Positions 50,090-52,357 of a stretch of 64,000 nucleotides of DNA are shown piece after piece; positions within the stretch are counted from its first letter, which is position 1; each line of letters opens with the position of its first letter. Source of the DNA: Streptomyces sp. AV19 (lineage in GTDB: Bacteria > Actinomycetota > Actinomycetes > Streptomycetales > Streptomycetaceae); assembly GCF_015999245.1 (NCBI RefSeq), contig NZ_JAEAMR010000007.1, forward strand, positions 108,806 to 172,805. Reading direction: 5' to 3'. The position numbers were made by a program, and so were the translations under genes. The notes below the pieces were generated by a model. It saw only the letters and a program-made list of their open reading frames with translations. It was not told the origin of the DNA and ran no database searches.

Positions 50090-50311
50090 TCACGGTGCCG
50101 GGTTCTTGTGAGGTGTCGTCTGCTGGTGTGCATTGAGTTCTGCTCGTAGCCGGGCGGCGGCGTTCTGGCACCCGACGCGCAGCGCGGCATCGATCCCGTG
50201 ATGGAGGGCGAGGCACCTCGGGCACGTGCGGTAGGTGTGCAGCGTGGCACCCGAAGGTCGGGTCACGCCGACCAAAGGGCGGGGGTATTGGTACGAAGGC
50301 CGATCACTCAC
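50090..50311 (-). CDS. hypothetical 73-residue protein with CPRC motif
   Basis: Begins VSDRPSYQYPRPLVGVTRPS; includes TYRTCPRCLALHHGIDAAL, where CPRC plus the following His pair and a later Cys could bind a metal. No recognised family. The GTG overlaps the TGA of the 79-residue gene (GTGA) and follows GGGAG, so the two are translationally coupled. Confidence 0.65.
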   Translation of the reverse strand: MSDRPSYQYPRPLVGVTRPSGATLHTYRTCPRCLALHHGIDAALRVGCQNAAARLRAELNAHQQTTPHKNPAP

Positions 50312-50547
50312 GGGCGCTCCCGGGTACTCACCGCACTCGGCCGGTTCGGGCCCTGATGCCCCACCGTGTGCCACCGCAAGTGGACATTGCAGTCGGACAC
50401 CGTGGTCAGGTCGCCTCCGGCTCGCGCCCGGTTCCGTACGGCCACGAGTTCTGCACTGGCTGCACAGCCTTCTACCGGGGTTAGTTCCGGTACCAGGCGC
50501 AACGGCAGTTCAACCGTCGCGGAGCTGAATCGCGTGGGTTCGGTCAT
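50308..50547 (-). CDS. conserved small protein (79 residues) linked to XRE regulators
   Basis: Begins MTEPTRFSSATVELPLRLVP; middle part VEGCAASAELVAVRNRARAG and DLTTVSDCNVHLRWHTVGH. I recall close relatives, usually with CAAC, encoded next to GntR- or XRE-type regulators in integrative elements and accessory islands of streptomycetes. Function unknown. ATG start; its stop overlaps the start of the 73-residue gene. Divergent from the XRE/PLD-like regulator. Confidence 0.7.
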   Translation of the reverse strand: MTEPTRFSSATVELPLRLVPELTPVEGCAASAELVAVRNRARAGGDLTTVSDCNVHLRWHTVGHQGPNRPSAVSTRERP

Positions 50548-50605
50548 GCGGTGATCTTCGTGCTGAACATGGGACGGGGGAACCTCCCGCGTTCCCCACT
50601 TCGGG

Positions 50606-50643
50606 ACGTCCCACGACAGGTAGAACGTCCCTGTGAACGTCCT
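50606..50643. promoter_or_regulatory. three ACGTCC iterons in the divergent promoter
   Basis: ACGTCCC (50606), ACGTCCC (50625) and ACGTCCT (50637); the first lies inside the palindrome GGGACGTCCC (50603-50612). They stand 20-60 bases upstream of the XRE/PLD-like regulator and 60-95 bases from the divergent 79-residue gene. Confidence 0.4.
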
Positions 50644-50663
50644 GAGTACGAGGGAGTGGACAC

Positions 50664-51404
50664 GTGCCGAACGAACGCTTACGGGCTGCCATGGCATCCG
50701 GTGGATGGACGCACGCCGCCCTGGCCCACGCGTCCGGTGTTGATCCCAAGTCCGTTGAACGGTGGATCAATCTCGGTCGGACACCGCGGCGAGTGACAGC
50801 GCTCAGGGCCGCCGAGGTCCTGGGGGAGGATGTCCACACGCTATGGCCGGCCCTCCGGCAGGCACGGACGGCGCGGGCTGTCAGCCCCGAACTCGTCGCG
50901 CTCTACGCCCAGCGGGCCGACCTCCCCGTCTCCGTCTTCGCAGAGCTTCTCGCGCAAGCGCAGCGCCGGATTGACGTACTGGTCTACGCAGCCGTCTTCC
51001 TGCACGAGGCGTACCCCCGCCTGAACGACCTGTTGAGCGAGCGCGCCACCGAGGGGTGCTCGGTCCGTATCGCCGTGGGTGATGCCGACAGCGCCAACGT
51101 CCAACAGCGCGGCCAGGAAGAGGCATTCGGCCACGGCATCGAATCCCGCTGCCGTCTGGCGCTGATGCACTACCGGCCGCTGCTCGGTTTACCGGGGATC
51201 GAGGTGCGGACTCACGGAACGACTCTCTACAACAGCCTGTACCGTGCCGACGAGCAGGTGTTGGTCAACGCTCACGTATGGGGTGTCAACGCCTTCGCAG
51301 CGCCCGTGTGGCACCTTCGGCGCAACAACCGTGGGGGCATGTTCGACACCTATATGGAGAGCTTCGACGCTGTGTGGGAAACCGCACGGCCGGTGGAGAG
51401 GTGA
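50664..51404 (+). CDS. XRE regulator fused to a phospholipase-D-like (DUF5919) domain; TTA codons
   Basis: 246 residues. An N-terminal helix-turn-helix (about 5-62: THAALAHASGVDPKSVERWI) is followed by a C-terminal alpha/beta domain (about 85-243) of the PLD-like/DUF5919 kind: AQAQRRIDVLVYAAVFLHEA, GCSVRIAVGDADSANV and GTTLYNSLYRADEQVLVNAH. The classic HxK motif is not evident. Two leucine codons, L6 and L176, are TTA, the rare codon read by the bldA tRNA; I saw no other in-frame TTA in the window's genes. GTG start after GGGAG. The NUDIX gene follows 4 bases later. Confidence 0.8.
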   Translation: MPNERLRAAMASGGWTHAALAHASGVDPKSVERWINLGRTPRRVTALRAAEVLGEDVHTLWPALRQARTARAVSPELVALYAQRADLPVSVFAELLAQAQRRIDVLVYAAVFLHEAYPRLNDLLSERATEGCSVRIAVGDADSANVQQRGQEEAFGHGIESRCRLALMHYRPLLGLPGIEVRTHGTTLYNSLYRADEQVLVNAHVWGVNAFAAPVWHLRRNNRGGMFDTYMESFDAVWETARPVER

Positions 51405-51408
51405 GCGC

Positions 51409-51879
51409 GTGGCACGGACCGAGTACTACGACGACCCGAGCGCGCCCGAGCCCAACAGCCTGGTCGTGGCGGCATCCGCCGTCGTCACCGACGACCGGGG
51501 CCGCATCCTGCTCCAGCGGCGCAGGGACAACGACCTGTGGGCGCTGCCGGGCGGCGCGATGGACATGGGGGATTCGCTGCCCGGCACTGCCGTACGGGAG
51601 GTCGAGGAGGAGACCGGGCTGCGCGTCGAGATCACGGGGCTCGTCGGTACGTATACCGACCCCCGGCACATCATCGCGTACAGCGACGGCGAGGTGCGCC
51701 GGCAGTTCAACGTGTGCTTCACGGCCCGGGCCGTCGGCGGCGCGCTGGCGATTTCCGACGAGAGTACGGAGCTCCGGTTCGTCGAGCCGCGAGAACTCGA
51801 TTCACTCCCCATGCATCACACCCAGCGGCTGCGCCTTCAGCACTTCCTGGAGCACCGTCCCACGCCCTATCTGGGATAG
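51409..51879 (+). CDS. NUDIX hydrolase
   Basis: 156 residues. Full Nudix box: GGAMDMGDSLPGTAVREVEE then ETGL (residues about 48-71), fitting G-x5-E-x7-REUXEEXGU except for a Gly/Asp variant at the first acidic position. It hydrolyses a nucleoside diphosphate linked to X; substrate unknown. The C-terminus has STELRFVEPRELDSLPMH, common in ADP-ribose or nucleotide-sugar pyrophosphatases. GTG at 51409, 4 bases after the regulator stop, so the two are an operon. Confidence 0.9.
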   Translation: MARTEYYDDPSAPEPNSLVVAASAVVTDDRGRILLQRRRDNDLWALPGGAMDMGDSLPGTAVREVEEETGLRVEITGLVGTYTDPRHIIAYSDGEVRRQFNVCFTARAVGGALAISDESTELRFVEPRELDSLPMHHTQRLRLQHFLEHRPTPYLG

Positions 51880-51943
51880 CGGCGCCCCCGCCTGAGTACG
51901 GCTACTCATGCACGCGAGACGGGAGCGGAGAAGACTCCGTCGC

Positions 51944-52357
51944 ATGTCGTCGTCACTGCCCGAAGCACCGCCGGTCGTGGTCCCGCACGGCCTCGACGCC
52001 CACCGCCGGAGCGGACTGCCGTGGTACGTGGATCTGCTCATCGCCCTCTTCCTGCTGGGGCTGGAGGGTGTCGTGGGGGCGGTCCTCCTGCTCGTCGTGG
52101 TCGTCGAGGAGTGGGGCGGGCGCCCGGCGGCGGACACGGGCGGGCAAGTGAGGACCACCGCTGCCGTGGTCGCCGCGTGCGCCTTCGTGGTCGTCGTGGC
52201 GGCGGTGCTCGGGCGCGCCTGGATCACCGTCACGGTTCAAGCGGCGGTCGTGGTCGCCGCCTGTTCTGTGGCGGTGACGGGGTATGCGTCCGAGGCCACA
52301 GCACCGATACGGGCCGGTCAAGCGGAACTTGGAGCACCCATTTTGCCGTCCCTTTAA
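51944..52357 (+). CDS. small integral membrane protein, unknown
   Basis: 137 residues. A proline-rich N-terminus (SSSLPEAPPVVVPHGLDAH) is followed by three membrane helices: about 24-48 (YVDLLIALFLLGLEGVVGAV), 65-85 and 90-112. No recognised family. ATG at 51944 with GGAGAAG 12 bases upstream; an upstream in-frame ATG at 51908 has no ribosome binding site. The next gene starts 2 bases after its stop. Confidence 0.65.
   Translation: MSSSLPEAPPVVVPHGLDAHRRSGLPWYVDLLIALFLLGLEGVVGAVLLLVVVVEEWGGRPAADTGGQVRTTAAVVAACAFVVVVAAVLGRAWITVTVQAAVVVAACSVAVTGYASEATAPIRAGQAELGAPILPSL

Follow-up and report, generated by a model that had tools for sequence, protein, structure and literature searches.

A recurrent TTA at codon 6 of a Streptomyces HTH/PLD-fold regulator gene as a putative bldA-dependent switch

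Known TTA-bearing regulators and the present locus

According to the available text of PMC10327506, an average Streptomyces genome contains 177 ORFs with TTA, 92% of which have a single one; such ORFs are often enriched in transcription functions, and the majority of Streptomyces TTA codons are poorly conserved. This makes adaptive TTA codons difficult to distinguish from drift. Among conserved cases, AdpA is the best known in the available part of PMC4255298: it is a DNA-binding regulator whose in-frame TTA recurs in Streptomyces and is rare in other actinobacteria. The same part of this source presents the WhiJ-like TTA-bearing regulators, e.g., SCO1242, as a DNA-binding family with many paralogues, some of which frequently carry TTA, while whiJ paralogues are reported to sit with bldB and abaA paralogues (PMC10294661, available text).

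The gene considered here was found in a window of 64,000 nucleotides of Streptomyces sp. AV19 DNA, the whole stretch that was analysed. It shares with AdpA a TTA that recurs in Streptomyces and is rare elsewhere, and with the WhiJ-like regulators a wealth of paralogues. However, the AdpA TTA lies between the two domains of the protein and is present in 14 of 14 genomes (PMC4255298, available part), whereas here TTA occupies codon 6, occurs in about one third of relatives, and has a putative bldA dependence; unlike the whiJ paralogues, the gene adjoins a NUDIX hydrolase gene. Early TTA codons are known too among the 11 conserved positions given in PMC10327506 (e.g., in a helicase at nt 16–19); in that list, as available, AdpA is the only entry named as helix-turn-helix, and none fits this regulator by name and position. 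The regulator family has no recognisable name in the available TTA lists of PMC4255298 and PMC10327506, and no paper linking the HTH/DUF5919-type family to bldA was found in searches of an open-licence library, where DUF5919 had no match; the claim of newness derives from these absences. TrmB and TrmBL2 are likewise regulators with a PLD-like C-terminal domain, but they are archaeal, and the HTH part of the present protein matches phage-type repressors, the comparison with TrmB covering the C-terminal domain. Codon 6 offers many changes on the tree together with two controls, an internal one in the NUDIX partner and an external one in the outgroup, thus making the question of whether TTA use is adaptive testable by a one-base swap of TTA to CTA, an exchange already made many times at this codon in nature.

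The regulator gene, its upstream region and its NUDIX neighbour

The regulator gene occupies positions 50664–51404 of the forward strand, encodes 246 aa from a GTG start and opens with GTG CCG AAC GAA CGC TTA. Both in-frame TTA codons reported in the first-pass annotation, L6 (50679–50681) and L176 (51189–51191), are present. Codon 6 is very probably translated, since the list of open reading frames holds no in-frame start earlier than the GTG at 50664, a Shine–Dalgarno-like GAGGGAG read from the sequence (50650–50656, forward strand) lies 7 nt before it, and N3, R5, L6, and R7 are invariant in the regulator alignment (41 sequences). The annotation had seen no other in-frame TTA in the genes of the window, and a survey of each TTA triplet on both strands agrees. 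Triplets were kept if they fell within an ORF that had a start codon and spanned no fewer than 80 codons, the coding-type profile was judged by eye from GC at the three codon positions, and no further in-frame TTA was seen in a plausible gene; the TTA at 52354 shares its frame with a real-looking gene but lies upstream of the likely start, GTG 52360. Counting across genes, proposed in the annotation as a check, gave 3 TTA among 6371 leucine codons in 179 rough genes from ten stretches of the genome (the window and nine of 20 kb), where genes were called by positional GC with no trained gene finder, and where codon 6 of the regulator is not in the count because the caller chose a late start for it. 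The genome has a tRNA-Leu(UAA) gene, one among 11 long tRNA genes examined. The same genome encodes two more relatives of the regulator (L002 and L003, ~46% and ~33% identity), both without TTA in the aligned part.

From its domains and predicted model, the product would be a small HTH protein with a degenerate PLD-like domain. HTH_3 is narrowly over the Pfam cut-off (23.5 bits vs. 23), and DUF5919 (PF19319), at 22.5 bits, is near but below its cut-off of 23.5. In the AlphaFold2 model (pLDDT 89, pTM 0.68), the N-terminal domain resembles phage-type repressors, e.g., P22 c2 (Z 10.7, 64 residues), and the C-terminal domain is PLD-like, its best matches including archaeal TrmBL2 (Z 14.3, 137 residues, rmsd 2.7, 17% identity) and PLD-family proteins. 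Active PLD enzymes carry the catalytic motif HxK(x)4D. This motif was not found in the regulator, where H184 is invariant but T186 stands two residues on in at least 90% of the 41 sequences; with threonine in place of the HKD lysine, the domain is likely a sensor rather than an enzyme.

For the comparison with relatives, 238 loci were taken; 234 could be aligned from close to the start, and merging of identical rows left 221; 39 of 40 outgroup loci were added (L336 was skipped). The final rows comprise 115 orthologues (window included) and 85 Streptomyces paralogues, which form the 200 Streptomyces-group rows, and 58 others. The search for related loci kept the best 80 of 163, and the paralogues were the best-scoring among the matches listed, which biases both sets towards close relatives. 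Codon 6 reads TCC in one orthologue row because of misalignment, and L004, L200, and L252, whose matches contain an in-frame stop, were kept.

Upstream of the gene, a putative operator/promoter (50603–50642, forward strand) includes the palindrome GGGACGTCCC (50603–50612), TAGAAC (50621–50626), and the direct repeats GAACGTCC (50623–50630 and 50635–50642). At least two ACGTC/GACGT motifs are found upstream in 114 of 115 orthologues, 61 of 85 Streptomyces paralogues, and 49 of 58 others; their mean number in the 110 bp upstream is 3.7, 2.7, and 3.5, respectively, vs. 1.3, 0.6, and 0.4 within a stretch of the gene taken as control. A scan of 50500–52000 found neither a consensus (sigma-70) promoter nor a terminator. 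The exact composite operator pattern has one match in its own genome, the regulator locus itself; no regulon is proposed on its basis, as 37 matches at up to three mismatches stood against 23 for a reversed control. The gap from TANAAC to the start is 36–38 nt in 90 of the 108 orthologue rows having the motif. Seven orthologues (L004, L007, L080, L093, L095, L104, and L108), six of them with TTA at codon 6, bear an ATG 6 nt after TANAAC, an arrangement that suggests leaderless mRNAs.

The NUDIX hydrolase gene (51409–51879, forward strand; Pfam NUDIX 74.9 bits) is TTA-free and begins 4 nt past the regulator stop codon. Of the 115 orthologue rows, 114 have a NUDIX gene after the regulator, as do 84 of the 85 Streptomyces paralogues and 44 of the 58 others; none of the 198 NUDIX partners found beside the 200 Streptomyces-group rows contains TTA. 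If codon usage were AT-rich or foreign in general, both genes should show it, so the NUDIX gene serves as an internal control: its aligned leucine codons in the Streptomyces groups hold 0 TTA and 124 CTA in 2536, vs. 33 TTA and 173 CTA in 4437 for the regulator without codon 6 (p 1e-7, the Fisher tests in this work counting related sequences as independent). For the NUDIX genes outside Streptomyces, the count is 1 TTA in 447 leucine codons. A divergent small ORF (50308–50547, reverse strand, 79 aa), whose reality is unsure, has no Pfam match, and a similar ORF occurs at 6 loci only. The NUDIX gene and the small ORF contain no TTA in 198 and 6 cases, respectively, and the idea that a TTA in either one compensates was rejected. 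The scanned neighbours were NUDIX or had no Pfam match over the cut-off; for the WhiJ system, whose regulator is XRE-type, AbaA/BldB-type neighbours would be expected.

Codons 6 and 176 across relatives

TTA stands at codon 6 (TTA6) in 64 of the 200 Streptomyces-group rows, window included. The orthologue rows hold CTA 55, TTA 39, CTG 12, and CTT 6 at this position, the Streptomyces paralogue rows CTG 26, TTA 25, TTG 10, CTT 10, CTA 9, and CTC 5, and TTA is found in 1 of the 58 rows from other families of the class; when the Nocardia rows are moved to the outside group, the counts become 62 of 198 vs. 3 of 60 (p 1e-5). The annotation had asked whether codon 6 is TTA in orthologues, and the answer is divided: TTA occurs in 39 of 115, but CTA is commoner. 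Beyond codon 6, TTA accounts for 16 of 2476 leucine codons of the regulator in orthologues and 17 of 1961 in Streptomyces paralogues.

On the 200-row tree, TTA at codon 6 changes 29 times, these changes being unpolarised because parsimony does not separate gains from losses. The 17 other columns with leucine in at least 60% of rows have 0–10 TTA each and 11 changes together, column 53 ranking next with 10 TTA and 5 changes. The fitted rate of TTA gain is 1.98 at codon 6 vs. no more than 0.34 in any of the seven further columns where TTA occurs. The tree is longer for the other-family rows than for the Streptomyces-group rows (25.1 vs. 20.7). A 221-row tree gave 31 changes in codon 6 TTA vs. 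56 on average over 100 shuffles, which means that the codon is also inherited. Judged by its recurrence in the sequences of relatives, TTA at codon 6 does exceed chance.

The preference is not for TTA alone. Among the 60 relatives belonging to other families, 19 have TTG at codon 6, 9 have CTA, and 1 has TTA; TTG or CTA thus occupies 28 of 60 positions vs. 196 of 1445 other leucines (p 2e-9), while TTA elsewhere in these regulators makes up 11 of 1445. An additive weak-codon expectation derived from CTA and TTG predicts 2.3 TTA in orthologues, where 39 are seen, and 5.3 in Streptomyces paralogues, where 25 are seen; for the outsiders, with 60 rows at codon 6 set against 58 merged rows elsewhere, it predicts 6.9, and 1 is seen. 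The excess of TTG and CTA together with the low TTA in outsiders indicates that codon 6 is prone to weak codons in all groups compared, with TTA proper favoured only in the Streptomyces group.

The view taken in the annotation that the TTA codons are of the bldA type finds support for codon 6 (TTA in 39 of the 115 orthologues and in 25 of the 85 Streptomyces paralogues vs. 1 of 58 outside, with the cognate tRNA gene present) but not for codon 176. Among 110 orthologues, the latter is TTA in the window only, the others having mostly valine or threonine codons, and there is no sign among them of TTA beyond chance; L180, a paralogue with ~46% identity, has TTA in this column too. The codon 176 TTA is best read as a chance change, incidental to the first, and the idea that two such codons in one regulator are striking was not borne out. 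TTA elsewhere in the regulator is found in 31 of 136 rows without TTA6 (often early, at codons 47, 53, and 74) vs. 1 of 64 with TTA6 (p 4e-5, related rows counted as independent), this sole row being the window. Such a shortage of second TTAs would be what 'one gate is enough' predicts; in tree-independent pairs, which are too few, it is not significant. At orthologue codons 54, 55, 59, 76, 147, and 244, the third position is A or T in 70–90% of 105–110 rows vs. a mean of 19%, and no cause of this was found.

Possible role of the codon and rival explanations

The reading preferred here, to which a probability of about 0.58 is assigned, is that TTA6 reflects selection in Streptomyces for bldA-dependent translation of the HTH/PLD-fold regulator, at a position that tends to carry weak codons anyway, i.e., that it may be a selected, Streptomyces-type switch codon. 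Scarce tRNA-Leu(UAA) would stall the ribosome at the sixth codon, ahead of any folded protein, and the regulator, if bldA-dependent, would be absent early and appear late, waiting for this tRNA. It may bind the upstream ACGTC repeats and control its own operon, in either direction: as a repressor, it would allow the NUDIX enzyme to be made early and shut down late; as an activator, the reverse. The TTA-free NUDIX gene would itself be ungated. More tentatively, and with somewhat less than even odds, one may picture a widespread two-gene operon in which streptomycetes repeatedly gate the regulator only, at codon 6, sparing the NUDIX gene, so that the bldA tRNA shifts the regulator-to-enzyme ratio and TTA/CTA turnover toggles the gate between species. 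Alternatively, polarity of an untranslated first gene could lower both the regulator and the NUDIX enzyme. According to the available text of PMC2000904, such polarity has been proposed for other TTA operons, and products of genes downstream of TTA codons are absent or reduced in a bldA mutant; the NUDIX product could fall too, which weakens the view that it is not gated.

Several points speak against this reading. Most of the 115 orthologue rows lack TTA6, and with CTA (55) at least as common as TTA (39), the gate must often be absent; given the weak codons at positions 5 and 7, TTA is not the sole target of the pressure. TTA6 is also present in both Nocardia orthologues, and PMC10327506 (available text) holds that control by TTA may matter in most Actinobacteria. 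TTA genes expressed in bldA-deficient strains are also on record (PMC4932002, available text).

The codons flanking position 6 lead to another explanation, namely that weak codons 5–7 keep the mRNA start unstructured or slow early ribosomes, TTA being merely the weakest of them. AGA or AGG occupies codon 5 in 89 of 115 orthologue rows (AGA alone in 45), these two making up 1.3% and 4.2% of arginine codons beyond codon 10; orthologue codon 7 is enriched in CGA/CGT, and paralogue codon 5 is A- or T-ended in 55%. The rare arginine codons of the orthologues are unexplained by the bldA reading, and the enrichment of TTG and CTA at codon 6 outside Streptomyces and the seven apparently leaderless orthologues fit an initiation effect as well. 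Folding energy over −30..+36 is weakest with TTA6 (mean −19.1 vs. −20.7 for CTG in orthologues and −18.5 vs. −19.9 in paralogues), but the gap to CTA6 is only 0.4–0.6 kcal/mol. Moreover, TTA6 is followed by CGC or CGG in many paralogues, codons 2–10 of 215 neighbouring genes hold one TTA and one CTA in 170 leucines, and only in the Streptomyces groups is TTA far more frequent than the additive expectation, which makes this explanation rather unlikely. It is quite improbable that an overlapping nucleic-acid signal (an operator, a regulatory RNA, or a promoter element) over codons 5–7 keeps the last base of YTA fixed. Codon 6 ends in A in 94 of 110 orthologues, ACGTC repeats lie upstream, and an imperfect palindrome (50681–50702) starts at the last base of the codon; however, the codon has this ending in 34 of 85 paralogue rows and in 10 of 60 outsiders despite the kept upstream repeats, and codons 5–7 of the window bear no ACGTC-type repeat. 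A relic of horizontal transfer with low-GC codon usage would agree with CTA at 3–5% of regulator leucines, with a GC3 of 0.79 for the regulator in the window, and with the occurrence of the family in Nocardia as well. Nevertheless, the NUDIX partner has a similar CTA usage but no TTA, and TTA is concentrated at a single codon, leaving such an origin very improbable.

The named orthologues before merging include two from Nocardia (both TTA at codon 6) and one each from Wenjunlia (TTA), Actinacidiphila (CTA), and Kitasatospora (CTG). The Nocardia orthologues (L104 and L108) are 77–78% identical and combine TTA6 with the leaderless layout, which suggests their transfer from Streptomyces.
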